Positions 45,140 to 60,136 of a stretch of DNA of 64,000 nt are shown piece by piece. A program made the position numbers and the translations under genes. The stretch's first letter is position 1. The number at the start of each line of letters is the position of its first letter. The notes below the pieces were generated by a model. It searched no databases, was not told where the DNA came from, and saw nothing but the letters and a program-made list of their open reading frames with translations. Origin of the DNA: Sulfitobacter sp. 20_GPM-1509m (lineage in GTDB: Bacteria > Pseudomonadota > Alphaproteobacteria > Rhodobacterales > Rhodobacteraceae); NCBI RefSeq assembly GCF_000620505.1, contig NZ_JIBC01000008.1, forward strand, positions 62,001 to 126,000, read 5' to 3'.

Positions 45140-46807
45140 TTAGCGCCCGCGTTTGTCGGGCGCTTTGCGGCCCACATATTTGCTTGCGGTTCCATCCGCT
45201 GCTTCGGTCGCATCCGCAACGCCGATCAGCACGCCCGTGCGCGGGCCAGAGGTGCGGTATTCGACGAACGTGGCATTCGACAGGGTCGTGCGGGCCGCCG
45301 GGCGGCGGGCCCATGTGTTCAGCTTGTCGTACATGGCTGCGATGGTCTCCGCGTGGTCGGCGCTGTTGCCCAGATCGGTCAGCTCGTTCGGGTCGGCCTG
45401 CAGGTCGAACAGCATCGGGCGGTGGCCGCTTTCAAAGTGGATCATCTTCCAGTGATGGTCCGCGACCATGAACATGCGCGACTGGTCGGGGTGCAGCCCC
45501 AGCCGTCCGGCCAGCGGTATGGCGGAATAATCGTATTCGCAGATGCTGTAATCGCGGGCCGGGGCCGCGCCGCCGCGCAGCAGGGGCAAGAGCGAATGCC
45601 CCTCGAGGATGTGATCCAGCGCCGATGCATCACCCCCCGCCACGTCGACAAAGGTGGGGGCCAGATCGATACATTCCACCAGCGAGTCCGAGGTGGTGCC
45701 CCGGGTCGCGTCGGCCGCGTCAGACGGGTCATAGATGATCATCGGCACCTTGACCGAGGCATCGTGAAAGAACGTCTTTTCCCCCAGCCAGTGATCGCCC
45801 AGAAAATCCCCGTGATCCGAGGTGATGACAATCATCGTGTCCTCCATGCGGCCCGTCTTTTCCAGCCAGTCGAACAGCACGCCCATCTGGTCGTCGCATT
45901 GCTTGATCAGGCCCATGTAGGCGGTCAGCACCTTGTCGCGGATGTCGTCGCGCGCAAAGGCGCGGCCCACGGGGGCGTTCTGGAAGCCCTTGAACACGGG
46001 GTGGTCCGTCTCGCGCTCGGCATCGCTGCGCACAGGCGGCAGGAAGTGTTCGGGGCTGTACATGCCCGCGTAAGGGTCAGGCACGATATAGGGCCAGTGC
46101 GGTTTGATGTAGCTCAGGTGACAGCACCACGGCTGGTCGCCCTGCGCCTTGATGAATTCGATGCCGCGGCGCGTCAGATAGGGCGTTTCGCTGTCTTCCT
46201 CGCGGATGTTGGCGGGGCTGTCCGAATTTTCCAGAAACCAGCCAGACAGGACGTTGCCATCGTCGTCGATGCCGGAATTGGCATAGTCGTGCCAGGGATT
46301 GTCGCTGTCATAGCCCTTGTCGCGCAGGTAATCGTTGTATTTCAACGCGCCACCTGGATCGTAAAACCCGTCCGGCCCTTCGGGGCGCATGCCGTCGTCG
46401 CGCTCCCAGATGTCAAAGCCGCACTCCGCGACCCGCGCGCCGATCACGCTGTCCGGCGCCAGCCCCAGCCGCCGCATCCCGTCGGCGTCGGCGGCCATGT
46501 GTGTCTTGCCCACCAGCCAGCAGCCCATTCCCAGATCGCGCAGATGGTCGCCCATCGTGCGCTCGCCCACCTTCAGCGGCACGTTGTTCCACGAGGCACC
46601 GTGGCTGTGCACATACCGCCCCGTATAGGTCGACATCCGCGAGGGACCGCAGAGCGGCGATTGAATGCGGGCATTGTCAAACCGCACCCCGCGCGCGGCG
46701 ATCCGGTCGATGTTGGGGGTCTTCAGATGCGGGTGGCCATAGCAGCCCAGGTAATCCCAGCGCAGTTGGTCGAACATGATGAACAGGATGTTCTTTGGAT
46801 TGGCCAT
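45140..46807 (-). CDS. Sulfatase/phosphonate monoester hydrolase-like enzyme
   Basis: The 555-residue alkaline-phosphatase-fold hydrolase has the formylglycine motif with C53 (PLCGPSR) and metal ligands near D13 (MFDQLRWDYLGCYG) and in TSDHGDFLGDHW. The DQ pair in place of the DD of classic sulfatases resembles phosphonate monoester hydrolases. Activity needs conversion of C53 by a formylglycine-generating enzyme, which is not encoded nearby. There is no signal peptide, so it is likely cytoplasmic. It ends an operon with a TRAP transporter and an amidase. Confidence 0.9.
   Translation of the reverse strand: MANPKNILFIMFDQLRWDYLGCYGHPHLKTPNIDRIAARGVRFDNARIQSPLCGPSRMSTYTGRYVHSHGASWNNVPLKVGERTMGDHLRDLGMGCWLVGKTHMAADADGMRRLGLAPDSVIGARVAECGFDIWERDDGMRPEGPDGFYDPGGALKYNDYLRDKGYDSDNPWHDYANSGIDDDGNVLSGWFLENSDSPANIREEDSETPYLTRRGIEFIKAQGDQPWCCHLSYIKPHWPYIVPDPYAGMYSPEHFLPPVRSDAERETDHPVFKGFQNAPVGRAFARDDIRDKVLTAYMGLIKQCDDQMGVLFDWLEKTGRMEDTMIVITSDHGDFLGDHWLGEKTFFHDASVKVPMIIYDPSDAADATRGTTSDSLVECIDLAPTFVDVAGGDASALDHILEGHSLLPLLRGGAAPARDYSICEYDYSAIPLAGRLGLHPDQSRMFMVADHHWKMIHFESGHRPMLFDLQADPNELTDLGNSADHAETIAAMYDKLNTWARRPAARTTLSNATFVEYRTSGPRTGVLIGVADATEAADGTASKYVGRKAPDKRGR
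45142..45164. other. Hairpin at the 3' end of the sulfatase gene
   Basis: Perfect 8-base arms (AGCGCCCG and its complement) flank 7 bases and overlap the last codons and the stop. It lacks a T-run on the sulfatase strand, so it is at best a factor-dependent terminator or an mRNA-end stabiliser. Confidence 0.35.
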
Positions 46808-46870: not shown

Positions 46871-48229
46871 CTAGCGTCCCATGAGCGACGGCACCAAAAG
46901 GGCAATCGACGGGAAGGAAAGCACCAGCCCGAGCAGCACCAGCATGGCCACGACGAAAGGCATCACGCCGCGGAAGATGGTCCAGACGCTGATGTCCGTG
47001 GTCGCGGCCTTGACGACAAAGACGTTGATCCCGACCGGTGGCGTAATAAGCCCCAGTTCGATCGCAATAACCGCGACGACGCCGAACCAGACCATGTCGA
47101 CGCCCATCGGCTTGAGGATCGCGGCCACCACGGGCACGGTCAGTGTCAGCATCGCGATGCTGTCGAACACGCACCCCATAGCCAGGTAGGCCACGACGAT
47201 GCACAAAACGACCTGGAAGGGGCTGAGGTCATAAAAGGCCAGAATATCCGTCATCGCGGTCGTGAACCCGGCGATATTGATAAAATTCGAGAAGATCAGC
47301 GCGCCGATGGCCACGACAAAGATCATGCCCGTGGTGATGCCCGTCTCGATCAGGCTCTCCCACAGACCGCGCCATGTCAGACGCCTGCGCAAAAAGGCAA
47401 AGAGCGCGGCAAAGACAACGCCGATCCCGGCGGCTTCGGTGGCGGTGAAGATGCCCATGTAGATGCCGCCGATGATCACCACAAAGATCACCACGATGCC
47501 CCAGACCTTGACCAGCAACCGAAACCGCTCGGCCATCGGGACGCGATCGGCGCTTGGGCCGGCGGTTGGGTCAAGCATCGTGGTCATGCCGATGGTGAAG
47601 AAAAACATCACTGTCAGCAGCAGGCCGGGCAGGATACCCGCCATGAAGAGATCGGCAATGTCCGTCTCTGCCAGGATACCGTAAAGCACCATCGGAACCG
47701 ACGGCGGGATCAGGATGCCCAAGGTGCCGCCCGCGGCGATCGACCCGGTGGACAGGGAATCCCGATAGCCAAAGCGGCGCATCGACGGCATCGCAACCTT
47801 CGAGATCGTTGCAGCCGTGGCAATGGACGAGCCACAGACAGCCGCAAACCCCGCGCAGGCCGCCACGGTGCCCATCGCCATCCCGCCCCGCCGATGGCCG
47901 AGGAAAGCGTTCGCCGCGACGTACAGATCCTCGCTGAGCTGGCTGCGGTGAATAAAGGCACCCATCAGAACGAAGAGCGGGATCACCGTCATGCCATAGT
48001 TGGTCGAGACATCGAACATCTGCTGTCCCGCCATGGAAAAGGCGGCGTTGAGGGCCCGGGTGTTGACCTCCAGCCCGCCGTCACCCCACCAGATCAGCGC
48101 CTGACCCACCATATCGGCACGGGCGATGGCAAACCCAAGCACGCCCACCAGTATCAGCGCAAACCCCAGTGGAATGCCGGCAAAGGCCGCGACCAGAAGC
48201 GCGACAAAACCAATCAATGACAGGATCAT
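46871..48229 (-). CDS. dctM: TRAP transporter large permease, DctM family
   Basis: The 452-residue protein has about 12 helices with the family block CAGFAAVCGSSIATAATISK and GTLGILIPPSVPMVLYGI. Its ATG overlaps the dctQ stop (ATGA). It forms the channel of the second TRAP system in the window and lies 63 bp upstream of the sulfatase gene. Confidence 0.93.
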   Translation of the reverse strand: MILSLIGFVALLVAAFAGIPLGFALILVGVLGFAIARADMVGQALIWWGDGGLEVNTRALNAAFSMAGQQMFDVSTNYGMTVIPLFVLMGAFIHRSQLSEDLYVAANAFLGHRRGGMAMGTVAACAGFAAVCGSSIATAATISKVAMPSMRRFGYRDSLSTGSIAAGGTLGILIPPSVPMVLYGILAETDIADLFMAGILPGLLLTVMFFFTIGMTTMLDPTAGPSADRVPMAERFRLLVKVWGIVVIFVVIIGGIYMGIFTATEAAGIGVVFAALFAFLRRRLTWRGLWESLIETGITTGMIFVVAIGALIFSNFINIAGFTTAMTDILAFYDLSPFQVVLCIVVAYLAMGCVFDSIAMLTLTVPVVAAILKPMGVDMVWFGVVAVIAIELGLITPPVGINVFVVKAATTDISVWTIFRGVMPFVVAMLVLLGLVLSFPSIALLVPSLMGR

Positions 48230-48735
48230 TCGAGCGTCTCCTCAGGATGTGTAACGGGTGGCGGCTTGCCCCCTATCGCCTGCACCACCAGCACGGCTGA
48301 GACAGCAGTAGCCAGCCAGGCAAGACCCGTCATTGCATAGGCCACGGGTGCCAGCGGGAGGCCAAGTGACCCTGACAGGGCAGAGCCACGCGACAGGTGA
48401 CTGGCCTGCACACCCATCCGCCAGGCCAAAAAGGCCAACATCAGGGTGATGATGCACAACATGATCACACGTTGAACCACCTTGGCGCGGTCGCTCAAAC
48501 GGTCGGTCAAAAGCGAGATCGTAAGGTGACCTTCCGCCCGCGTGGTCAGGGGCAATGCCGCAAAAACCGATAGAGCCATCAGATACTGAACGATCTCATA
48601 GCCGCCCGGCAGCGGGGCGCTGAAGAAATAGCGCCCCACGACGTCGATTGCAGTGATCAGCGCCATCGCCAGGAGAAAGGTCGCCATGATCGCTTCCAGT
48701 ATCCGCTCTAGCCAGGTCCATGCGGTTGTGAACAT
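48226..48735 (-). CDS. dctQ: TRAP transporter small permease, DctQ family
   Basis: The 169-residue protein has four helices and the conserved segment TAIDVVGRYFFSAPLPGGYE typical of DctQ. ATG 48735 follows GGGAG. It bridges the binding protein and DctM. Confidence 0.9.
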   Translation of the reverse strand: MFTTAWTWLERILEAIMATFLLAMALITAIDVVGRYFFSAPLPGGYEIVQYLMALSVFAALPLTTRAEGHLTISLLTDRLSDRAKVVQRVIMLCIITLMLAFLAWRMGVQASHLSRGSALSGSLGLPLAPVAYAMTGLAWLATAVSAVLVVQAIGGKPPPVTHPEETLE

Positions 48736-48749
48736 TGCCCCCGCTCCCT

Positions 48750-49772
48750 CTAGTTGCCAGCGGCGACGAGGGCGACCTGCTCGCGGTAGTACGCAAGCGC
48801 CGCGGCACCATCGATCCCGGCGTCATCCGCCAAGTCGGTCCAGTTCTGGTAGATCGGCGCCCAGGCATCGGTCAACGCCTTGACCATCTCGTCCGAGGCC
48901 TTGTGAACCTTGCCACCGGCGGCAACGAAAGCCGCGCGGTACTCTTCGCTCTCAGCCTGCGAGGTGATCATGCGACGGGCAAGCGCCTCGCCCGACAGGC
49001 CACGAATGATCTCCTGATCTTCCGGCGAGATGGTGTCCCAGATGTCGCTGCTGACGTAGAATGCAAAGGCCGAGGAATACAGCCCATTGGGCAATTCGGT
49101 GGCGGTCTTGGTGAATTGCGTGACGTTGAAGGCGTCCACGCCGGCATAATCAATGCAGCAATAAGCATCGACCACACCACCGGAAATCACCTCGTACATA
49201 CGCACCGCAGGGCCCGGCGAAACCACAGCACCCAGGGCTGCCAGAGACCGCGACGCCAAGCCGGGCAGCGCCCAGAATTTTGCCCCCTGGAAGTCCGAGA
49301 TATCATCGAACACTGTGTCGTTCATCGAGTAAAAGCTGCCCGGCTCCAGGGTCAAAAGGCCCAGCAACTCGACGCCCTCCAACAAATCGCCCGCCGACAG
49401 ATGTTCTTCATAGGTCCGCCAATAGGCGACTGAACCGGCCACCGCGCTGGCGTTCACCGAGGGCAGCAAGGAGATCTGCAAGAGTGGGTTCGAGCCTTCA
49501 AGGAAACCGGTCATGATAAACCCGCCGTCCGCGATGCCCTGTTGCACCATGGTCAGCAGCTCGGGGGGCGGCGCGAGCGAGGCGTCCGGGATCTGGAACG
49601 TCACCCGACCTTCGGTCTCGGTTTCAATGTCGTTGATCCAGGGCTGAATGATGTCGGTATACAGACCATTGGTCGGCCCGAGGAAATTGTTGAACAAAAT
49701 CGTTGTATCAGCCTGAGCCGCGAACGGGCTCGCCAGCATCGCTGCCGTTAACAATGTGGTAAACTTCTTCAT
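48750..49772 (-). CDS. dctP: TRAP transporter solute-binding protein, DctP family
   Basis: The 340-residue periplasmic protein has a signal peptide (1-21, ending FAAQA) and DctP features: GRVTFQIPDASLAPPPELLT and DDISDFQGAKFWALPGLASR. The usual arginine-containing RVP/RIP strand is replaced by FWALPG, so the carboxylate-binding arginine is not in its normal place. The ligand may not be a simple carboxylate. Its gene lies 72 bp after the amidase gene. Confidence 0.9.
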   Translation of the reverse strand: MKKFTTLLTAAMLASPFAAQADTTILFNNFLGPTNGLYTDIIQPWINDIETETEGRVTFQIPDASLAPPPELLTMVQQGIADGGFIMTGFLEGSNPLLQISLLPSVNASAVAGSVAYWRTYEEHLSAGDLLEGVELLGLLTLEPGSFYSMNDTVFDDISDFQGAKFWALPGLASRSLAALGAVVSPGPAVRMYEVISGGVVDAYCCIDYAGVDAFNVTQFTKTATELPNGLYSSAFAFYVSSDIWDTISPEDQEIIRGLSGEALARRMITSQAESEEYRAAFVAAGGKVHKASDEMVKALTDAWAPIYQNWTDLADDAGIDGAAALAYYREQVALVAAGN

Positions 49773-49844: not shown

Positions 49845-51302
49845 TCAGGCGAAACCTGGTGGCGGAACGAAACCGCCGAAAATCTCGTCGCACAACGCGG
49901 TGAACCCTATTGTCGTGCGGTCTGCGAATTCCGCGCTGATGGCCTGAATGCCCGCAGGCATGCCGCGCACCGGATCCGGCAGCGGGCGCACGGTCGAGGG
50001 CAGGTGCCCCAGCGTGGCAACGCCCGGCCAATAGAGGTTTTCCATATAGGGCCGCGTCTCGCCGCCAACGTCGAGCACACGTGACATCTGGGGCACCGGG
50101 CCGTGCCCGTCCTCGGTCTGATGCGGGAAGGCGACGGTCATGCTGACCGGGCAAAGCAGGATGTCGAAATCCGCAAACCAGGCGCGCCATGCCGCGCGCA
50201 ACTTCGCCTGCCGTTCGACCAGACCGGCGAAGTCGGCCAGACTGGACCGGGTCGCCCGTGCCACCTGATCGGGCAGGCTGCCATCCGGGTGGCCTGCGGC
50301 AGCAGCGGCATAGGCTTCAAGCTCGGCCTGCGGCACGCCCGATCCGATCGTCGCAAAGAGCAGCGCGATATAAAGGTCGTCGTTGCCGATCAGCGGTTCG
50401 GGCATCGCATCGAGGCGGGTGACCCGCGCGCCCTGCCCCGCCAATGTATCGGCGTATTCGGCGATCGCGGCGGCATAGGCCGGATCGACCGGATTGCCGC
50501 CGGTCCACACGGCGACACGATAGTCGGACAGCGCTTCGTGTCGTGGTTTCGGCAGGTTCAGGACCCAGCCACTGTCACGCTCAGTGCCTGCAAGCAGATC
50601 AAGCCCCAGCTCAAGGTCAGCAGCGGACCGACCCATCGGACCGCTGACCGAAAGCGGAGATGTCGCCAACGCGCCTGAAGGCGGCACCTGGCCGCGCGAG
50701 GGAATGATGTCGTAGGTGGGTTTGTGCCCCCAGACCCGGCAGAAATGCGCGGGGATGCGGATCGAACCACCAATGTCGCTGCCCAGCTCCAGCGCGGTGA
50801 ACCCCGCAGCCAGCGCCGCAGCCGCACCGCCCGAGGATCCGCCAACCGTGCGGGATGTGTCCCACGGGTTGCGGCAGACCCCGTGCAGCGGGTTATAGCT
50901 CTGGTGATCAGAGGCGGCGACCGGCACGTTTGTCTTGCCCCAGATCACAGCACCAGCAGCACGCAGACGCGCGACCGCCGGGGCGTCGTCGGTCGACACG
51001 TAATCCTTCAGCTCCGGTATGCCTGCCGTCGTGTGGAACCCTTCGATCTCATAGGTTTCCTTGATGGTCATCGGCAGTCCGGCCAGCGGGCTGGACGCGT
51101 CAGAGGCATCCGCCGCCTTTGCCGCCTGACGCGCGGCATCGGCCCGGACCTCGACGACCGAATTCACGTCGCCATCAAGCCGGGCGCGGCGGTCCAGACA
51201 CTGTTCAAGCAGTTCGAGCGCGCCGATTTTGCGGGCCTTCAATGCCGCGACGGTCTCGACGGCGGTCCACTGATGTGGGGCTTTTTGTAGGAATGCGGTC
51301 AT
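49845..51302 (-). CDS. Amidase (amidase signature family)
   Basis: The 485-residue enzyme has the catalytic triad K81 (PMTIKE), S156 (GGSSGGAA) and S180 (GSDIGGSIR). It is distinct from the amidase at 24023-25402. Its ATG overlaps the stop of a 29-codon upstream ORF (ATGA), so its translation is probably coupled to that ORF. It heads the TRAP and sulfatase operon and would hydrolyse an amide bond in, or derived from, the imported compound. Confidence 0.92.
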   Translation of the reverse strand: MTAFLQKAPHQWTAVETVAALKARKIGALELLEQCLDRRARLDGDVNSVVEVRADAARQAAKAADASDASSPLAGLPMTIKETYEIEGFHTTAGIPELKDYVSTDDAPAVARLRAAGAVIWGKTNVPVAASDHQSYNPLHGVCRNPWDTSRTVGGSSGGAAAALAAGFTALELGSDIGGSIRIPAHFCRVWGHKPTYDIIPSRGQVPPSGALATSPLSVSGPMGRSAADLELGLDLLAGTERDSGWVLNLPKPRHEALSDYRVAVWTGGNPVDPAYAAAIAEYADTLAGQGARVTRLDAMPEPLIGNDDLYIALLFATIGSGVPQAELEAYAAAAAGHPDGSLPDQVARATRSSLADFAGLVERQAKLRAAWRAWFADFDILLCPVSMTVAFPHQTEDGHGPVPQMSRVLDVGGETRPYMENLYWPGVATLGHLPSTVRPLPDPVRGMPAGIQAISAEFADRTTIGFTALCDEIFGGFVPPPGFA

Positions 51303-51388
51303 GGATGGGCCTTGCCTGTGAACGATTGAATGGATCCGGGAAGGGCACGCCAGAGCGGTATTCCGGCGTTCTTCAATTTCGACATCAT
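51299..51388 (-). CDS. Small 29-codon ORF coupled to the amidase gene
   Basis: This ORF has an excellent ribosome site (GGGAGGG at 51396-51402, 7 bases before ATG 51388) and ends with TGA overlapping the amidase ATG. The peptide is basic with a short N-terminal stretch MMSKLKNAGIPLW. The amidase itself has only a weak ribosome site. It looks like a leader peptide or translation-coupling ORF. A real small protein cannot be excluded. I know of no family match. Confidence 0.55.
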   Translation of the reverse strand: MMSKLKNAGIPLWRALPGSIQSFTGKAHP

Positions 51389-51414
51389 GCTCAAACCCTC
51401 CCGTTTTGCGAAAA

Positions 51415-51431
51415 TGTCACCAGTGGTGATA
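51415..51431. promoter_or_regulatory. TetR operator candidate 1: TGTCACCAGTGGTGATA
   Basis: The core TCACCA-G-TGGTGA is a perfect palindrome with 6-base arms. It overlaps the -10 box of the amidase-operon promoter and lies in the divergent region with the TetR gene (51563). A near-identical site lies at 54061-54077. Confidence 0.75.
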
Positions 51432-51459
51432 TTAGGAGTAAGCGATTCGTTTTTGTCAA
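51429..51459 (-). promoter_or_regulatory. Predicted promoter of the amidase-TRAP-sulfatase operon
   Basis: On the minus strand, TTGACA (51454-51459) and TAATAT (51429-51434) are separated by 19 bases. The spacing is long, but the amidohydrolase promoter at 54075-54105 has exactly the same layout. Confidence 0.6.
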
Positions 51460-51562
51460 GCTTCATCGCTTGACCTGACGCATTGTGGGTCAGCAACGGT
51501 TGTCGAGCGGGACCGCCGCATGCTAAAAAAGCAGCGCCTCTGATGTCGGGAAAAAAGCAACC

Positions 51563-52267
51563 ATGAACAAGCAAGCAGCGCCCAAGGCAGCGCGCAAAAA
51601 GTCATATCATCACAAAGACTTACGCAATGCGTTGCTGGAGACTGCCCTGACCCTTATCGATCAGCGCGACGGTCCCCATTTCTCTTTGCGTGAACTTGAG
51701 CGCGCACTTGGCGTCTCGCATGCGTCGGCCTATCGTCACTTTGCTGACAAGGCCGCCTTGCTGGATGCTTTGACGGCAGAGGGATTCGCCAGGCTGGCCG
51801 CCTGTCAGGATGAAGAACTGAAAAAGGCGGGGGACGATCCAATGGATCGCCTCGAGGCGCTTGGCGTCGCCTACATTCACTTTGCCCTGAACAACAAAGG
51901 CTTCTTCTCGTTGATGTTCACCGAGCGCGACGACGAGAACCTCGAACGCAGCAACAGGACCCATCACAACCAACAAGCCCTGACGACCTTGCTTGGCTGC
52001 ATCATCGCGTGTCAGGACGCCGGGATCGTCACCGCAGGCGATCCGAAACGCATCGCGGGCTATGTCATTCTCGCCACGCATGGCCTTGCAGTATACCGGA
52101 CACAAGGCCACCACCCCTTGGGCAGCGGCAACGACGATGCCTTTTTCCCTGACATTGACGCGGTGAACGAACTGACCATCGCGCCCCTGCTGATCAATCG
52201 CCCCAGCGCGGCAGAGTACTCTGCCCGCTGGTTCGCGCCCATTGATCCTGCGCGATCGGAAAGCTGA
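51563..52267 (+). CDS. TetR-family transcriptional regulator
   Basis: The 234-residue protein has a TetR helix-turn-helix (ALLETALTLIDQRDGPHFSL, then LERALGVSHASAYRHFADKA) and a C-terminal TetR_C-type domain (YIHFALNNKGFFSLMF). It is divergent from the amidase operon and convergent with the amidohydrolase gene. Two similar palindromes overlap the promoters of both of those units, so it is the likely shared repressor. Confidence 0.92.
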   Translation: MNKQAAPKAARKKSYHHKDLRNALLETALTLIDQRDGPHFSLRELERALGVSHASAYRHFADKAALLDALTAEGFARLAACQDEELKKAGDDPMDRLEALGVAYIHFALNNKGFFSLMFTERDDENLERSNRTHHNQQALTTLLGCIIACQDAGIVTAGDPKRIAGYVILATHGLAVYRTQGHHPLGSGNDDAFFPDIDAVNELTIAPLLINRPSAAEYSARWFAPIDPARSES

Positions 52268-52290
52268 TCATGGCAACGGTGCATGGCATC

Positions 52291-52314
52291 CGGGCGCCCC
52301 AAAAGGAGCGCCCG
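52291..52314. terminator. Hairpin between convergent TetR and amidohydrolase genes
   Basis: Arms CGGGCGC and GCGCCCG, extended by CC/GG after one mismatch, enclose an AAAA loop, 23 bp after the TetR stop. It is symmetrical and could serve both convergent genes. There is no clear T-run. Confidence 0.5.
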
Positions 52315-52324
52315 CCGCAAGGCC

Positions 52325-53992
52325 TTAGAGAGCCGCCTCAAAGGTGATCTTCCCACCGCATATCGTTGCGATGGGCGTCATCTGCGGAATGTCGTCGGTT
52401 GGGACAGCTTCAATATCAGCCGACAGCACAACGATATCGGCAAGCATACCAACCTGAAGCCTGCCTTTGATATCCTCGGCATGTTCGGCATAGGCCCCTT
52501 CAACCGTGTAACTGTAAAGCGCCTCGTGAAGCGTAAACCGCTGATCCGGCAGATGCGGTAGATAGGGTTCACGCGTCATGGCGGCGTGCACCCCGCGCAT
52601 CACGTTCAGGTCGGCAACGGGCCAATCGGACGCAAAGACAACGTGCGCCCCTAACTCCTTGAAGGTGCGGAAGGCGTAGAAATACGGCAGGCGTTCCTGC
52701 CCAACCACTGTGAGCGTAGGCTCCAACGGCGTGCCCATCATGCCCGGCGGATGGGGTGGCTGAACCGAGGCGATGGCACCCAGACCCGCAATGCGCGGCA
52801 GGTCAGCGGGATCGATCACCTCGATATGTTCCAGACGATGCCGGCTGTCCCTGGTCCCGTTGGCGTCGGCCGCCGCCTCATAGCCATTCAGGACAGACCG
52901 GACAGCGCCGCTTCCGATGGCATGGACGGCAATTTGCAACCCGCGCCTGTCGGCCCCGATGGCAACCTCGTTGAACTGTTCCTGGGTGAACAACGGCTCG
53001 CCCTGAAAGTCCGGCTGATCGCCATATCCGTCCAGCATATAAGCTGTGTGACCGTCCAGAACCCCGTCATAGAACATCTTCACCAGCCCGCTGGACAGCC
53101 ATTCGGTGTCATAACGCGCGGTCATGGTCGATGCCTTTTCAAGGTCGTCCAGTTTCATGAAATTCTTGTAGTGGAATGGCACCTTCACCCGGCACAACAG
53201 ATCGCCATCGCGCTGAATTTCCTCAAGGATCTCGAAGGTATAAAAGTTGCCATCCATGTTCTGGATAGATGTGATCCCGTGCTGGGCGCACCATTTCAGC
53301 GCGTCCTTCACCATTCGGACATCGGATGCGAATTCGTCCGCGGTCGGCTTGGGATCGGGCTCTCCACCAGTGGTCATGCCAAGCATGCCACGATCCAGAC
53401 CACCGAACCTGAGAAGCGGGTTATAGGCCTCGGCCTCATTCAGCTCGCCATTTGCAAGGCCGTCATCGCCCATGACAACAGCATTGCCCGGGCTGACCTC
53501 AAGACCATGCAGCAACCCGGCCTTTTCAAGCGCAAGCGTGTTGCCCCACATCGTGTGATTGTCGAAAGAGACGAACGCAAGCGGTCGATCCGGCATAATC
53601 CGGTCCAGATGATGTCTGTCCAGCCGGGTCCCCTCGCCCAACATCGTATAGCTCGCCATCTTGCAGGTCAGAAGCTTTGCGTCGGGATGTTGCACCGCAT
53701 AATTTCGGACCGCCGCCGCGACAGGCTCGAAACCCTGCAGCCCCGTCAGATCAAGGTGCCCCAGCTGAGAGGCACCGCCAAAAAGATGCATATGCGCTTC
53801 GATAAACCCGGGCAGAACCGTGCCACCGCGCGCCGAGACAATTTTTGTGTCTGGCCCGATCAAACTCTCAATTTCGGCGTTCGACCCAACCGCAACTATC
53901 TTGCCATCTGAAACCGCAACGGCCTCTGCCTTGGGACGGTCACGGTCCATGGTCAGGACATGACCTTCCAGAACAACCAAATCAGCTTTCAT
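52325..53992 (-). CDS. YtcJ-like amidohydrolase
   Basis: The 555-residue metal-dependent hydrolase has the HxH motif in GFIEAHMHLFGGASQ, the block HRLEHIEVIDPADLPRIAGL and the C-terminal FASDWPV and GVHAAMTREPYL segments of YtcJ/NfdA-type enzymes. Known relatives cleave amide or formamide bonds. ATG 53992 has GAAAGG upstream. Its promoter carries the second TetR-type operator, so it is probably co-induced with the amidase-TRAP-sulfatase operon. Confidence 0.92.
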   Translation of the reverse strand: MKADLVVLEGHVLTMDRDRPKAEAVAVSDGKIVAVGSNAEIESLIGPDTKIVSARGGTVLPGFIEAHMHLFGGASQLGHLDLTGLQGFEPVAAAVRNYAVQHPDAKLLTCKMASYTMLGEGTRLDRHHLDRIMPDRPLAFVSFDNHTMWGNTLALEKAGLLHGLEVSPGNAVVMGDDGLANGELNEAEAYNPLLRFGGLDRGMLGMTTGGEPDPKPTADEFASDVRMVKDALKWCAQHGITSIQNMDGNFYTFEILEEIQRDGDLLCRVKVPFHYKNFMKLDDLEKASTMTARYDTEWLSSGLVKMFYDGVLDGHTAYMLDGYGDQPDFQGEPLFTQEQFNEVAIGADRRGLQIAVHAIGSGAVRSVLNGYEAAADANGTRDSRHRLEHIEVIDPADLPRIAGLGAIASVQPPHPPGMMGTPLEPTLTVVGQERLPYFYAFRTFKELGAHVVFASDWPVADLNVMRGVHAAMTREPYLPHLPDQRFTLHEALYSYTVEGAYAEHAEDIKGRLQVGMLADIVVLSADIEAVPTDDIPQMTPIATICGGKITFEAAL

Positions 53993-54060
53993 CCTAGGGC
54001 CTTTCGCCAAATCTGAGTCTTCCAGATTGTATGTTGTATGACATTCGCGACTTCACGAAA

Positions 54061-54077
54061 TGTCACCACCGGTGATA
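54061..54077. promoter_or_regulatory. TetR operator candidate 2: TGTCACCACCGGTGATA
   Basis: This site is identical to the 51415-51431 site except for two central bases, keeping TGTCACCA and GGTGATA. It overlaps the predicted -10 box of the amidohydrolase gene. Confidence 0.75.
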
Positions 54078-54105
54078 TAAAAGCAGTGTCCGCCGAATTC
54101 GTCAA
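54075..54105 (-). promoter_or_regulatory. Predicted promoter of the YtcJ-like amidohydrolase gene
   Basis: On the minus strand, TTGACG (54100-54105) and TTATAT (54075-54080) are 19 bases apart. The last bases of the -10 run straight into the operator, as in the amidase promoter. Confidence 0.6.
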
Positions 54106-54186: not shown

Positions 54187-54879
54187 TTACGCGGTCAGGC
54201 GTGACCGATCCTTCTTGAAGAACGCGGCGAAAATATCGGCGTAGCGCGTTGAACTCAGCGGGTCACCGATACGCTCCTGCGCGGTATTGATGATCTCCGC
54301 CGGCAGAATATCACCGCGCGCGGTCAGAAGGTCGGCCATAAACTCAGCCGTGAATTCGGGATGCGGCTGGACCGTAAGTGCGCGATCACCGTATGCAATC
54401 ATCGCATTGGCGCAAAAATCCGAGGCGCCAATCACCTGCGCCTCGGGCGGGAGCTTGGTGATTTGATCCTGATGCCAGGCGATGATGCGATCGGTTCGCC
54501 CGTCTTGACCCTGATAGTCGGTGGCCCCGACGGACCAGCCGCCGCTGAACTTTTCGACCCTGCCGCCAAGTGCCTGCGCAAGCACCTGATGGCCGAAACA
54601 GACCCCGACAATCGGGACGCAACCCTGATAGGCATCACGCAGAAAGGCTTCGAGCGGGGCAATCCAGTCGTGGCCTTCGTAGACGCCGAATTTGGATCCG
54701 GTAATCAGCCAGCCATCCGCATCATGCACCGAGGCGGGAAGATGCCCTTCGAGGACCAAATAGGTATCAAATTCAAAGTCGTACCCGGCCAGAAGCCTTT
54801 TGAACAAGTCGTCGTAGTCACCATGTTTGGCACGCATCTCATCCGGGGTGCGCCCGGTTTGTAAAATACCGATCTTCAT
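54187..54879 (-). CDS. Class I glutamine amidotransferase-type hydrolase (GuaA-like domain)
   Basis: The 230-residue protein has the triad nucleophile C94 (GVCFGHQ) and H173/E175 (QPHPEF). It is a stand-alone amidotransferase domain related to the GMP synthetase type, not the PuuD sequence type. Its place next to PuuB- and PuuA-like genes suggests it hydrolyses a gamma-glutamyl amide in the pathway, the job PuuD does in E. coli. That role is inference. Confidence 0.88.
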   Translation of the reverse strand: MKIGILQTGRTPDEMRAKHGDYDDLFKRLLAGYDFEFDTYLVLEGHLPASVHDADGWLITGSKFGVYEGHDWIAPLEAFLRDAYQGCVPIVGVCFGHQVLAQALGGRVEKFSGGWSVGATDYQGQDGRTDRIIAWHQDQITKLPPEAQVIGASDFCANAMIAYGDRALTVQPHPEFTAEFMADLLTARGDILPAEIINTAQERIGDPLSSTRYADIFAAFFKKDRSRLTA

Positions 54880-54945
54880 CTTGTTCTCTTATCGCCTACC
54901 AGTTTCGAGAAATCAGCGCCTTGCGCCCCAGCCCGTTGGCCAATC

Positions 54946-56256
54946 TCAGACACCCAGCCGGTCACGCAGCGCATACCACCACGACCCCATCACGGAATAC
55001 GGAACGCGGAACACCCTGCCGCCCGGGAATGGATACCAGGGGATATTTTCAAAGACGTCAAACCGCGTGAGATCACCGTCGATGGCTTCGGACAGGATGC
55101 GACCAAAGGTGTGCGACCCCGTGACGCCGTGGCCGGAATAGCCATGGGCGAAATAGGTGTTCTTGCCCAACCGGCCCATCTGCGGCACGCGGCTGAACGA
55201 GAGCGCAAAATTGCCGCTCCAGGCATAGTCGATCTGGATGCCCTTCAACTGTGGAAAGACCTTTTCCATGTTGCCGCGCAGCTTGGCCTCGATGTCGCGC
55301 GGGTCCGCGCCGCCGTAAACAGTTCCACCGCCAAACAACATGCGTTTGTCACCAGACAGGCGAAAGTAGTCCAGAATATAGCGGATATCCTCGACGCAGG
55401 CGTCCTGCGGGATCAGCGAATGCGCCAGTTCCTCGCCCAGGGGTTTGGTGGCCATGACCTGGGTCGAAACGGGCATCACGCGCGATGTCAGCGCGGGCAC
55501 GACATGGCCCAGATAGGCATTGCCACACAAGACAAGCGTTTTGCAGATCATCTTGCCCTTGGCTGTCTTGACCACGGGTTTTGCTGCATCGGTGTCGACG
55601 TCAGTCACCGGCGACATCTCGTAGATGATGCCGCCAAGTTTCTCAAACGCAGCGGCCTCGCCCAGTGCGAGGTTCAATGGATGCATGTGGCCGCCGGAAT
55701 GGTCGACAAGCCCACCTTCGTAGAGATCCGAGTTGATGTGGGCGCGCAGCTGGTTTTTATCGAGCATTTCTTGATTGTCGATGCCGTAGCTTTTCCAAAG
55801 TGCCTGACGGTCTTCCAGCTCTTTCATGTGGGCACTGGTCAGCCCGGTAAAGATGTTCTTTTCTTTCAGGTCACACTGGATGTCATAGGTCTTGACCCGA
55901 TCGCGAATGATCTGGCCACCTTCCTGCACCAGACCGGCGACAAAGGTCGCGGTGTCCTGACCATAGCGTTTCCTGATCGTTTGCAGGCTGGCGTTCAACC
56001 CGTTGACGATCTGGCCGCCGTTGCGCCCGGACGCGCCCCAACCGACCCGCGCGCCTTCGACGATGGCCACCTTGTACCCTTTTTCAACCAGATACAGACC
56101 GGTCGACAGACCGCTGTAGCCCGCCCCGATGATGCAGATGTCAACTTCGTTGATACCGCTCAGAGCCGGACGCCTGGGTGCGGGGTTGGCCGAGGCCGCA
56201 TAATAGCTTGTCGTGTGCTGACCGTCGCCAGCATAGGGGTTATTGGCAGCGTTCAT
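54946..56256 (-). CDS. FAD-dependent amine oxidoreductase (PuuB-like)
   Basis: The 436-residue protein has the FAD-binding motif IIGAGYSGLSTG (GxGxxG at 44-49) with acidic E67, and the block GWGASGRNGGQIVNG typical of gamma-glutamylputrescine oxidases. The C-terminus FAHGYSGHGVTGSHTFGRIL also fits. It would oxidise a gamma-glutamylated amine to an aldehyde with release of ammonia and hydrogen peroxide. ATG 56256 overlaps the glutamine synthetase-like stop (TGATG). Confidence 0.92.
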   Translation of the reverse strand: MNAANNPYAGDGQHTTSYYAASANPAPRRPALSGINEVDICIIGAGYSGLSTGLYLVEKGYKVAIVEGARVGWGASGRNGGQIVNGLNASLQTIRKRYGQDTATFVAGLVQEGGQIIRDRVKTYDIQCDLKEKNIFTGLTSAHMKELEDRQALWKSYGIDNQEMLDKNQLRAHINSDLYEGGLVDHSGGHMHPLNLALGEAAAFEKLGGIIYEMSPVTDVDTDAAKPVVKTAKGKMICKTLVLCGNAYLGHVVPALTSRVMPVSTQVMATKPLGEELAHSLIPQDACVEDIRYILDYFRLSGDKRMLFGGGTVYGGADPRDIEAKLRGNMEKVFPQLKGIQIDYAWSGNFALSFSRVPQMGRLGKNTYFAHGYSGHGVTGSHTFGRILSEAIDGDLTRFDVFENIPWYPFPGGRVFRVPYSVMGSWWYALRDRLGV

Positions 56257-57605
56257 CACACCACCTCCAGATATGAGTGATATTCAAAATCGGTGACGTG
56301 GCGGGCAAAGCGTTTAAGCTCTTGTGTCTTGCATTCCACCAGCATCGTTTGCAGCTGTTTGGAAAAGACGTCTTGGACATAGGTGCCACGCCGAAAGGCC
56401 TCGATCGCGCTGGCCCAGTCCAGAGGCAGGTGCGGCAGCTCTTGCCGGTACGCATCGCCAATGACAGCCGGAGCGGGAACAAGCGCCTTTTCGATTCCCA
56501 TCAGCGCGCCACCCAGAATACTGGTCATCACCAGATACGGGTTCGCATCGGCACCGGCGACACGGTGCTCGATCCGCCGCGCCTTGTGACTGCCACCCGG
56601 GATACGCACGGCGACCGTCCGGTTTTCATATCCCCAACCAACGCCCGTGGGGGCATGGGCACCGGGCAGCAGGCGGCGGAAAGAGTTCTCATGCGGCGCA
56701 AACGTAAGGCTGTTCTCCTGCATCGTCTCCAAAAGCCCGGCGACGGCGCTGCGCATGATGTCCGTGCCTTCTTCGCCACCGTTGTCAAAGACGTTCTCGC
56801 CCTTTTCGTTCAACAGCGAGAAGTGAACGTGAAAACCGCTGCCAGCACGATCGCCATAGGGTTTGGCCATGAAAGTCGCGGCAAAACCGTGTTTGCGCGC
56901 GACACCCCGGACCAGCCGTTTGAACAAAACCGCGTCGTCGGCCGCACGCAGCGGATCATCGACATGCATCAGATTGATTTCAAACTGACCCGCACCGTTT
57001 TCCGAAATGGCCGCATCAGCCGGAATGCCCTGTTCGGCGCAGGCGTCATAGACGTCGTTCAAAAATCCGTCGAAGTGCTGCAGTTCATCCAGTGACAAGG
57101 CACCGTCGGAATCCAGCCGTTTTCCTGTGACAGGCGAACGCGGGGCTTCCGGCTTGTCGCCCGAGGGGTCGCAGACGTAGAATTCCAGCTCGGACGCGAC
57201 AACCGGCGTCAGGCCAAGCGCCTTATAGCGCTCGACGATGCTTCCCAACGCGCGGCGTGGATCGCCCGGGAACGGTACGCCATTCTCCTGGCGCATCCAG
57301 AGCATGGCCATCGCCGTGGGCCGGTCAAGCCAGGTGATGGGCAAAAGATCACGACCCGTAAAATCGCACAGACCGTCGGAATCGCCTGTTTCAAAGACCA
57401 GTTTGCTGTTTTCGATATCCTCGCCCCAGACATCAAGGCCAACGACAGACAGGGGCATGCGCATGCCGCCCTCGACCACTTTCTCGGCCTGATCAACTGG
57501 AACACGTTTGCCGCGCAGGGTGCCGTTCAGATCACAGACGCAGGCAAAGATGGATTGAATTTCGGGCCTGTCCGCAAGCCACTGCGTTACGTTGAAATCA
57601 GACAT
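56256..57605 (-). CDS. Glutamine synthetase-family gamma-glutamylamine ligase (PuuA-like)
   Basis: The 449-residue protein has glutamine synthetase core motifs: ELEFY, ENGAGQFEINL, KPYGDRAGSGFHVHFSL and RIEHRVAGADANPYL. The first 100 residues differ from GlnA, as in PuuA. It would attach glutamate to an amine with ATP. ATG 57605 follows AGGAG. It is coupled to the PuuB-like gene and divergent from a GntR gene. The class III paralogue at 60136 is about equally long. Confidence 0.9.
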   Translation of the reverse strand: MSDFNVTQWLADRPEIQSIFACVCDLNGTLRGKRVPVDQAEKVVEGGMRMPLSVVGLDVWGEDIENSKLVFETGDSDGLCDFTGRDLLPITWLDRPTAMAMLWMRQENGVPFPGDPRRALGSIVERYKALGLTPVVASELEFYVCDPSGDKPEAPRSPVTGKRLDSDGALSLDELQHFDGFLNDVYDACAEQGIPADAAISENGAGQFEINLMHVDDPLRAADDAVLFKRLVRGVARKHGFAATFMAKPYGDRAGSGFHVHFSLLNEKGENVFDNGGEEGTDIMRSAVAGLLETMQENSLTFAPHENSFRRLLPGAHAPTGVGWGYENRTVAVRIPGGSHKARRIEHRVAGADANPYLVMTSILGGALMGIEKALVPAPAVIGDAYRQELPHLPLDWASAIEAFRRGTYVQDVFSKQLQTMLVECKTQELKRFARHVTDFEYHSYLEVV

Positions 57606-57617
57606 GGAGACTCCTAA

Positions 57618-57646
57618 GTGATACCTTGAGTAATTTTGTGATATCA
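57618..57646. promoter_or_regulatory. Paired GTGATA half-sites in the GS/GntR divergent region
   Basis: GTGATACC (57618-57625) and GTGATATC (57638-57645) start 20 bp apart, and the second includes the palindrome TGATATCA (57639-57646). A similar pair lies 40 bp apart before the aminotransferase gene. They are candidate sites for the GntR regulator at 57734. Confidence 0.4.
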
Positions 57647-57733
57647 TATTGAGTGTTTAGATTTCATTTGAAGCTTGTGTCAATTTTTTTCTTGAATATT
57701 GTCCCTTAGCGAAAACAAACGCGGGATAGTCGC

Positions 57734-58423
57734 ATGGCAAAGGCCGACACACTGAACGTTCCAGAGATCGCTTTCGGTGCGGACCGGACGACGCAAGAGT
57801 ACGTCTATGCGCGGCTGCGGAATGCGATCATGGTGGGAGCGATCGAGCCCGGGGCGCATTTGACGATGCGCGGACTGGCCGAGGCGCTGAACCTAAGCCC
57901 GACACCCATACGCGAGGCAGTCCGGCGGCTCAGCACCGAACATGCGCTGCAGATTTTGCCAAATCGCCGGATGACCGTACCCCTCATGACGCTGGGACGG
58001 TTCGAAGAGCTGGTCGCGCTGCGGATCACGTTAGAGGTACACGCAGCCGAGCGGTCCGTGCCTTATATCTCTGATATCATTATTGAAAACATGGTCGCGC
58101 TTGACAATGAAATGGACAGGGTTCTGTCCGAAGGGCACTATGACGCGCTGACGATCCTGAACCAGGATTTTCACCGGATGCTGTACGCGGTGAACCCCCA
58201 TCAGGTCTGTATCCCCGTGATCGAAAGTGTCTGGCTGCAACTGGGGCCGTTCCAGCGTCAGGTGCTGGTGCGCTTGAACCAGGTGCCGGGCGTGGATCAC
58301 CACAAACAGATCATTAGCGCGCTCAGAGCGCGGGATGTGGTGGCGTTGGGCGAGGCCGTTAAGAACGACATTCGCGAAGGTATCAGCCGCAGCGGCCGGC
58401 AGATTTTGGAACAGGTCGCCTGA
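57734..58423 (+). CDS. GntR-family (FCD) transcriptional regulator
   Basis: The 229-residue protein has a winged helix (QEYVYARLRNAIMVGAIEPG, then LAEALNLSPTPIREAVRRLS) and an FCD domain with PVIESVWLQLGPFQRQV. It is divergent from the PuuA-like gene and upstream of the aminotransferase operon. It is a paralogue of the GntR at 62505-63176, which has the matching ESVWMQFGPF block. It probably controls both flanking units. Confidence 0.9.
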   Translation: MAKADTLNVPEIAFGADRTTQEYVYARLRNAIMVGAIEPGAHLTMRGLAEALNLSPTPIREAVRRLSTEHALQILPNRRMTVPLMTLGRFEELVALRITLEVHAAERSVPYISDIIIENMVALDNEMDRVLSEGHYDALTILNQDFHRMLYAVNPHQVCIPVIESVWLQLGPFQRQVLVRLNQVPGVDHHKQIISALRARDVVALGEAVKNDIREGISRSGRQILEQVA

Positions 58424-58726
58424 GAGCAGCCTGCCGCCCAATACATCAGCCCTGACAATTGCAGCACAAAACAACGCTTGGGACGGCATCTTTAAGCTGG
58501 GCAGACCACGCCGAATCCTCGCCCTGAAATGGGGTTTTCGCGCCATGCTGTCAGAGTCTGAAGTGATCCGCCTACCGTGACGAATTCCCAACTGTTATAA
58601 CTTTATCAAAAATCCGAACCTGAGAGGTCACAAAATACCCCCTTTTAAGGCCTTTTTTTGTGATACCGATTGACAGAATGTGTCTTCGCCCTCATTAAAG
58701 TGATAACTTTTAGCTTGAGGTCCACC
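58424..58726. other. 303-bp intergenic region upstream of the aminotransferase gene
   Basis: No gene is visible. The right part is AT-rich and holds the predicted promoter (58670-58699) and two GTGATA repeats (58660-58665 and 58700-58705). A run of seven T at 58652-58658 follows only a 4-bp stem, so I do not call a terminator. Confidence 0.5.
58670..58699 (+). promoter_or_regulatory. Predicted promoter of the aminotransferase-GS-SDR operon
   Basis: TTGACA (58670-58675, perfect -35) is followed after 18 bases by ATTAAA (58694-58699), or after 17 by CATTAA. GTGATA motifs sit on both sides (58660 and 58700), well placed for a regulator. Confidence 0.5.
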
Positions 58727-60136
58727 ATGAACACCCAGAATAACGCCGCCACCCTTACGCCGGGCCTTGATGTCGCGGCCTTGTGCGAAAAGGCCCGCCA
58801 GATGGTTGCGCACGAAGCCCCGCTTTACGAACAGCTTCGTCCGCGCAGCAAGGACATGTTCGCAAACCCAACGCCGGGGTTTTACGATCAGGTGCCGCAG
58901 CACTGGATGCGCGATTGGCCGATGCCCTTTCCCTTTGCCGTCGCCGGTGCCTCCGGCAGCACCCTGACCGACATTGACGGCAACACGCTTGTCGATTTCT
59001 GCCTTGGTGACACCGGCGCAATGTTCGGCCACGCGCCCCGGCCCATTGTCGAGGCCTTGTCGCAATCGGGCGAACGCGGCCTGACCACCATGCTGCCCTC
59101 GGGCGAAGTCGCGGAAGTCGGCAAGCTGTTGACCGACCGTTTCGGCCCCTTCGTCTTTCAGATTGCCACCACCGCAAGCGATGCCAACCGCTTTGCCATC
59201 CGGGTCGCGCGGGCGGTGACCGGGCGCAACAAAATCCTGGTCTTCGATGGTTGCTATCACGGGGCCGTCGACGAAACGCTGGTCGACCTTGAGGACGGCC
59301 AAACGGTCGCCCGAAAGAACCTGTTGGGTCAGGTTGTCGATGTCACCACGACGACCGTCAGCATTCCGTTCAACGACATTGACGCGCTGAAGACCGCGCT
59401 TGAGGCGGGCGATATCGCCGTCGTTCTGGCCGAACCGGTGATGACGAACTGTGGCATGATCCTGCCCGACGAGGGCTATCTGACAGCGCTGCGCGACCTG
59501 ACGCGCAGCGCTGGCACGTTGCTGCATATCGACGAAACGCACACGATTTCCACCGGCCTTGGCGGCTATACTGCGGTGCACGGGCTTGACCCGGACATCT
59601 TTGTCGTCGGCAAACCCGTGGGCGGCGGCGTGCCGGTCGCGATCTGGGGCATGTCGCAGGACGTTGCCAAAGCCATGTCCGACATCCGCGCCAAAATGAC
59701 CGGCATCGGCCATTCCGGCATCGGCACGACCCTGTCGGGCAGCACACTGCAAATCGCCTGTCTGCGCGCATGCCTGTCGGAAGTGATGACAGCAGAGGCT
59801 TACGCCACCATGAACCGCCACGCCGACCGGCTTGAACAAGGTTTCACGGACGCGATCCGCGCCGCAGGGCTGCCGTGGCACGTCAGCCGCGTTGGCGCGC
59901 GGCTTGAAATTGTGTTCTCGGCCGACCCCGTGCGCAACGCGGCAGAGGCGCGCGCGGCTGCGATTGATGACATTCAACATGCCCTGCACATCGGCGTGCT
60001 GAACCAGGGCTATCTGGTGACACCCTTCCACAACATGGTGCTGGTCGCGCCAACCACGACAGACGAACAGGTCGAGGGGCTGCTGAGCGCCTATGAAACC
60101 GTGCTGACGCGTCTCGTTGGACAGGAGGGCAAGTGA
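58727..60136 (+). CDS. Class III aminotransferase (glutamate-1-semialdehyde aminomutase-like)
   Basis: The 469-residue PLP enzyme has the cofactor lysine K296 (VVGKPVGGG), the aspartate D269 (LLHIDETHT) and GCYHGAVDE near 175. It resembles the GSA-aminomutase branch, but the phosphate-binding region reads TTASDANRFAIRVAR instead of the usual SGTEA, and the operon context is catabolic. It would transaminate an amine or amino acid of the gamma-glutamylation pathway. ATG 58727 follows GAGG. The next gene overlaps its stop (TGATG). Confidence 0.88.
   Translation: MNTQNNAATLTPGLDVAALCEKARQMVAHEAPLYEQLRPRSKDMFANPTPGFYDQVPQHWMRDWPMPFPFAVAGASGSTLTDIDGNTLVDFCLGDTGAMFGHAPRPIVEALSQSGERGLTTMLPSGEVAEVGKLLTDRFGPFVFQIATTASDANRFAIRVARAVTGRNKILVFDGCYHGAVDETLVDLEDGQTVARKNLLGQVVDVTTTTVSIPFNDIDALKTALEAGDIAVVLAEPVMTNCGMILPDEGYLTALRDLTRSAGTLLHIDETHTISTGLGGYTAVHGLDPDIFVVGKPVGGGVPVAIWGMSQDVAKAMSDIRAKMTGIGHSGIGTTLSGSTLQIACLRACLSEVMTAEAYATMNRHADRLEQGFTDAIRAAGLPWHVSRVGARLEIVFSADPVRNAAEARAAAIDDIQHALHIGVLNQGYLVTPFHNMVLVAPTTTDEQVEGLLSAYETVLTRLVGQEGK

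Follow-up and report, generated by a model that had tools for sequence, protein, structure and literature searches.

A TetR-family regulator gene (51563-52267, + strand) in a 64,000-nucleotide stretch of the Sulfitobacter sp. 20_GPM-1509m genome (contig NZ_JIBC01000008.1, positions 62,001 to 126,000; here the window) lies between two transcription units that share a 17-bp inverted repeat in promoter position. The units are a five-gene operon for an amidase, a TRAP transporter and a sulfatase, and a separate gene for a YtcJ-like amidohydrolase. As read from sequence, a TetR-family repressor very probably occludes both promoters, and its release by a ligand would co-express the two units for use of an amide compound. 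The evidence that the one regulator controls two promoters is good for the operon; for the YtcJ-like gene such control is likely.

Putative operators and promoters

The putative operators follow the pattern TnTCACC-n3-GGTGAnA. On the + strand, O1 is TGTCACCAGTGGTGATA (51415-51431) and O2 is TGTCACCACCGGTGATA (54061-54077), and 15 of their 17 bases are identical. O1 lies in the 260-bp gap (51303-51562) between the amidase operon (- strand) and the divergent TetR gene (+ strand). O2 lies in the 176-bp gap upstream of the YtcJ-like gene (54010-52325, - strand), which converges on the TetR gene from its far side. In promoter sense, the repeat upstream of both the amidase and the YtcJ-like gene reads TATCACC-n3-GGTGACA. 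The initial annotation had given it as TGTCACCA-n2-GGTGATA; the repeat is present at both sites, but that form sits off the symmetry centre, and the symmetric form is 7-3-7.

In - strand sense, the predicted promoters are TTGACA-19-TAATATCACCACTGGTGACA for the amidase operon (-35 at 51459-51454, -10 TAATAT at 51429-51434) and TTGACG-19-TTATATCACCGGTGGTGACA for the YtcJ-like gene (-35 at 54105-54100, -10 TTATAT at 54075-54080). Both operators lie over the -10/+1 region, beginning within the final bases of the predicted -10, and at each TTGAC stands 28 bases ahead of where the operator begins (offset -28). Two promoters with a matching repeat, the same TTGAC offset and a TetR gene between them, as first described, were confirmed at these positions. 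Promoter duplication was ruled out, with only 17 of 45 bases identical upstream of the operator and 13 of 33 downstream.

Assignment of the -10 elements is ambiguous. At a 19-base spacer TAATAT and TTATAT match the consensus at 4/6 and 3/6 positions, and at a 17-base spacer CCTAAT and TTTTAT match at 4/6 each, neither with A at position 2. Because the -10 is itself ambiguous, the 19-base spacer is insecure. A consensus promoter scan covering spacers of 16-18 nt flagged neither the amidase nor the YtcJ promoter.

Motif frequency

The own genome comprises 4,740,410 bases (4.74 Mb) in 23 contigs. A whole-genome scan of the kind proposed as a check, here for TnTCACCnnnGGTGAnA, found perfect sites at O1 and O2 only, two observed versus 0.20 expected by base composition. 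Eleven more sites carry one mismatch, all classed as coding by a simple codon-usage gene finder that was checked only on its 15 training genes; one of them (L035) lies only 25 bases inside its predicted frame and would be intergenic with a later true start. A wide regulon was not seen for perfect sites, nor do the one-mismatch sites, so classed, point to one. Allowing up to two mismatches gave 206 places versus 75 for the reversed pattern. The perfect reversed pattern was absent from the own genome and occurred once in 149 family genomes; it is rare everywhere, so its absence here says little. Within the window, a search at up to three mismatches on both strands returned seven matches (four of them the two operators) versus a shuffle mean of 0.90.

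Perfect matches are held by 40 of the 149 family genomes, own included. The other 148 carry 49 perfect sites (0.33 per genome), of which the same gene finder classed 38 as coding and 11 as intergenic, the latter including one locus (L232) where it gave no gene. None of the 49 site-bearing stretches encodes a relative of this TetR protein at an expectation value (E) of <=1e-3; in one of them, some 1.6 kb away from the site, there is a partial match to the amidase (36%, 135 residues). Wide occurrence in unrelated places, named at the outset as a sign against the proposal, was found in other genomes, mostly in coding sequence, and not elsewhere in the own genome. The motif is a fairly common word in Rhodobacteraceae, and two perfect copies in promoters flanking one TetR gene, equally far from TTGAC in both, are distinctive. 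With 49 sites in 148 other genomes, the evidence is the position of the sites and not the word itself.

Conservation in Phaeobacter sp. HF9A

Relatives of the TetR protein were sought in one genome per species; 130 loci had relatives and the best 80 were kept. Among these 80, Phaeobacter sp. HF9A (NZ_JAATOX010000078.1, locus L046) encodes an orthologue (79% over nearly the full length), and the other relatives reach at most 55%. HF9A has the same operon order, with the TetR gene divergent (amidase 85%, DctP 73%, DctQ 83%, DctM 88%, sulfatase 89%). O1 is identical there and in the same place (L046 7825-7841), again with TTGAC at offset -28. Across the stretch that runs from the -35 to the operator end, 42 of 45 bases are identical to those of the window, including 6/6 of the -35 and 16/19 of the spacer; in the flanks, identity is 16/32 just upstream and 18/33 just downstream. 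The predicted promoter and operator form a phylogenetic footprint, drawn from two sequences. Comparison with an orthologous operon, also suggested initially, bears out the operator in this way. The site in the TetR-amidase gap is the one perfect site in the HF9A genome; ten others carry one mismatch, and of four that were classified, three are coding and one is not.

As to possible control by the TetR protein of its own gene, the best + strand promoter candidate common to both genomes is TTGTSR, 18 bases, TAAAAA, which starts about 85 bases past the beginning of the operator. Candidates spanning the operator score above the threshold in the window but not in HF9A.

Two genomes show the amidase-operon arm, one alone shows the YtcJ arm, and no counterpart of O2 was found in another genome. 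Could O1 be a genuine TetR operator and O2 at the YtcJ-like gene a chance or non-functional site? O2 is seen in the own genome alone, no close YtcJ relative (E<=1e-225) occurs in the 393 other family genomes (one per genus), and the best YtcJ relative in HF9A (58%) is on another contig and adjoins a GntR-type gene. Nevertheless, the expectation of a perfect site in the 176-bp gap is near 1e-5 (from 0.20 or 0.33 per genome) and TTGAC stands at the same -28 offset, which makes a chance O2 very unlikely. Membership of the YtcJ-like gene in the regulon is likely, as suggested by this one genome. The proposal of a one-repressor regulon holds as a TetR regulator with two target promoters, because the genome's only two perfect sites flank the TetR gene in promoter position and because of the HF9A conservation; its YtcJ part is predicted from a single genome.

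Regulator and proposed mechanism

The regulator is a 234-amino-acid protein with TetR_N (PF00440, E 8.5e-9, 35.5 bits versus a cut-off of 24) and TetR_C_33 (PF13305, E 7.5e-10, 39.8 bits versus 26.8), the latter of a C-terminal ligand/dimer domain class. Examined as a TetR operator, the palindrome is present at the target promoters and is regulon-specific within the genome, and its binding is predicted. The dimeric repressor would bind TnTCACC-n3-GGTGAnA at both promoters. Each operator spans the last -10 bases and extends past the likely start point, so a bound dimer would cover both and exclude RNA polymerase. A small molecule related to the compound that is transported or hydrolysed may then bind the C-terminal domain and cause the repressor to leave. 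Derepression would express the amidase-TRAP-sulfatase operon and the YtcJ-like gene together, and their products may take up an amide compound and cleave it by hydrolysis; this compound may also bear a sulfate ester. We infer that this TetR protein is the binder, that it represses rather than activates, and that a ligand releases it.

The arrangement resembles TetR/tetA and other divergent TetR repressors in its divergent gene, its palindromic operator at the target promoter and the expected release by a small molecule. It differs in the 260-bp gap, in a second target promoter beyond the next gene, and in targets that are hydrolases and an uptake transporter, not an efflux pump. Layout and mechanism are ordinary and textbook; only this particular case is new. 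A literature search (TetR/amidase/TRAP/sulfatase, TetR/YtcJ, Phaeobacter) found no published account of such a regulon by title. The locus offers a testable repressor-operator pair with a predicted operator sequence and two targets. It would tie an amidase, a TRAP transporter, a SpAS2-like sulfatase and a YtcJ-like hydrolase to one inducer, and identifying it would indicate in a single step what all four act on.

Ahn et al. 2012 (PMC3511530) describe most TetR-family proteins characterised so far as repressors, and take a gap of up to 200 bp to predict control of the divergent gene. The amidase-TetR gap of 260 bp exceeds this limit, which is a predictor and not a defining trait. In our judgement, an operator inside the neighbour's promoter, together with its conservation, outweighs the gap rule. 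The long gap is also consistent with a palindrome that serves a different regulator, the neighbouring TetR protein acting elsewhere or on itself only. That possibility draws on the binding being a prediction from sequence and on the gap class, in which the divergent gene proved not to be under the TetR regulator's control in three of four cases tested (PMC3511530). It is very improbable, since the genome's only two perfect sites flank this TetR gene and site and TetR gene co-occur in HF9A; other family genomes are at background level, with 38 of 49 sites coding and no relative of the TetR protein encoded close to any of them.

The initial annotation had suggested that promoters with the 19-base spacer may depend on the repressor, or on an activator, for proper use. 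The TetR protein, or another factor, would then be an activator or spacer-corrector. TTGAC does stand 19 bases from a -10-like hexamer in three promoters, and TAATAT in the amidase promoter keeps A at position 2 and T at position 6, which CCTAAT at 17 bases does not. The 16/19 spacer bases kept in HF9A and the one activator among the four long-gap regulators in PMC3511530 point the same way. However, the site lies downstream of the spacer, over -10/+1, in a repressor position; the 17-base reading is equal or better by consensus matches in both promoters; and identity with HF9A drops to 16/32 upstream of the -35, where no activator site is visible. The suggestion was not upheld, and activation is highly improbable. 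An extension of it, in which the 19-base spacers are real and kept for regulatory reasons and the TetR dimer, or else a partner, goes beyond blocking to tune poorly spaced promoters of a marine amide/sulfate-ester pathway, is speculative and extremely unlikely.

Distant relatives and family distribution

A more distant TetR-operon pairing was counted in favour of the proposed repressor. On plasmid pAtS4e of Allorhizobium ampelinum S4 (L126), a TetR relative (42%) is divergent from an operon with an amidase gene at its end; of the two matches on the plasmid to the window amidase at E<=1e-60, this one is the better (51%). The transporter is of the ABC type, as opposed to TRAP, and no sulfatase is listed. 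The gap contains the palindrome ATTATGTTTCCACTGTAAACATAAT (L126 7779-7803), equalled by 1/100 shuffles, which is a candidate operator of the pAtS4e TetR protein and is centred like the window operator. It was not used as proof; the geometry is suggestive and was noticed after the fact. TetR and amidase genes found together with different transporters suggest, by analogy, a link between the inducer and the compound that the amidase cleaves or forms.

No TetR relative at E<=1e-25 was found in the 393 other family genomes, with at most seven first-pass candidates scored per genome listed, and none at E<=1e-30 in five congeners. Weaker TetR matches are common (42 of 61 genomes, own included; best E 1.9e-21). 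The amidase at E<=1e-140 and the YtcJ-like protein at E<=1e-225 occur in the own genome only among 394 family genomes.

Several observations weigh against a two-promoter repressor regulon. HF9A is the single orthologous genome found. Its locus is alike in operon order, TetR protein, identical operator and near-identical promoter, and differs in having no YtcJ gene or second site beside the operon and only one perfect site genome-wide. Two or three perfect sites occur in 8 of the 148 other family genomes, in no case less than 3 kb apart. Upstream of more distant TetR relatives, no more than 9/12 motif positions are matched, and the pAtS4e palindrome differs in sequence from the window operator. 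PMC3511530 describes four TetR regulators with gaps >200 bp, three without control of the divergent gene and the fourth an activator. Symmetry of the repeats, scored by a 9-bp-arm measure against 100 shuffles per gap, is by itself unremarkable and within chance: an equal or better repeat arose in 13/100 shuffles of the amidase-TetR gap, 63/100 of the YtcJ gap and 17/100 of the HF9A gap. The formylglycine-generating enzyme domain (PF03781) had no match in the own genome, in a search that found controls in 4/14 genomes and did not cover the anaerobic radical-SAM maturase; activation of the sulfatase is unexplained by this result despite its C-x-P-x-R motif. Chance as the source of the sites was ruled out by position beside the TetR gene and by conservation, not by the modest word rarity or by symmetry.

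Enzymes and substrate

The operon runs on the - strand from 51302 down to 45140 in the order amidase, DctP, DctQ, DctM, sulfatase. Its first gene (49845-51302) encodes an amidase-signature hydrolase (PF01425, E 6e-84) that is PRK06170-like below the model cut-off. Among the matches listed, the best NCBIfam equivalog score was 489.1 bits versus a cut-off of 503 (NF004816). Solved relatives of the amidase include ClbL and the UMG-SP urethanases. The transporter genes encode the TRAP substrate-binding protein DctP (48750-49772, PF03480), the small permease DctQ (48226-48735, PF04290) and the large permease DctM (46871-48229, PF06808; TIGR00786 above cut-off). The YtcJ-like protein (52325-54010, - strand) is an Amidohydro_3 protein (PF07969, E 5e-86). 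It did not reach its NCBIfam equivalog cut-off, with a best score of 60.8 versus 391 among the matches listed.

Between O1 and the amidase gene, a 29-codon frame (MMSKLKNAGIPLW...; 51299-51388, - strand) starts just after O1. GGGAGGG precedes its ATG, and its stop codon shares bases with the start codon of the amidase gene (ATGA). In HF9A a frame in the same place also begins after a G-rich stretch, and its sequence is different, so the frame may be due to chance.

The last conserved operon gene (45140-46807, - strand) encodes a sulfatase (PF00884) with a C-x-P-x-R motif, CGPSRMSTYTG, at residue 53. Its closest solved relative is SpAS2 (PDB 4UPL, E 1.2e-260), which has CGSSR where the window sulfatase, known from sequence alone, has CGPSR. 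The protein did not reach the NCBIfam equivalog cut-off (302.8 versus 900, PehA). For SpAS2, PMC12421950 gives kcat/KM values of 2.1e5 for p-nitrophenyl sulfate versus 4.0e2 for p-nitrophenyl phenylphosphonate, and PMC5870055 reports inactivity on choline-O-sulfate. The substrate first put forward, an amide-bearing sulfate or phosphonate ester, was a guess; because SpAS2 favours aryl sulfate, the natural sulfatase substrate is, by analogy, likelier a sulfate ester than a phosphonate.

The sulfatase is widespread, found in 185 of 394 family genomes at E<=1e-120 and in other gene contexts, so it says little on the regulon. It looks like a recruited part of the operon and is not diagnostic. The contig carries another copy of the sulfatase gene, 95% identical to that of the operon, at a distance of about 211 kb (G000 contig C6, 320243-321904, L167); this copy adjoins a different TRAP large permease (38%) and lacks the operator. 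Forty-five records match the operon stretch, nearly all within the sulfatase gene (45140-46807). The gene is also carried on plasmids of Pseudosulfitobacter and a few other Roseobacter (L166, L179-L182), with differing neighbourhoods in the five examined. By sequence comparison, its distribution is as if the sulfatase gene had spread as a single gene.

Neighboring genes

Upstream of the YtcJ-like gene, the region 54187-60136 encodes in the same direction a class I glutamine amidotransferase, an FAD oxidoreductase (AmaA-like) and a glutamine-synthetase-like protein, all below cut-offs. The opposite strand encodes a transaminase that exceeds the PRK07046 cut-off, and a protein read as a GntR-like regulator, for which there was no match at E<=1e-30. 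The region looks like a gamma-glutamyl amine breakdown cluster.

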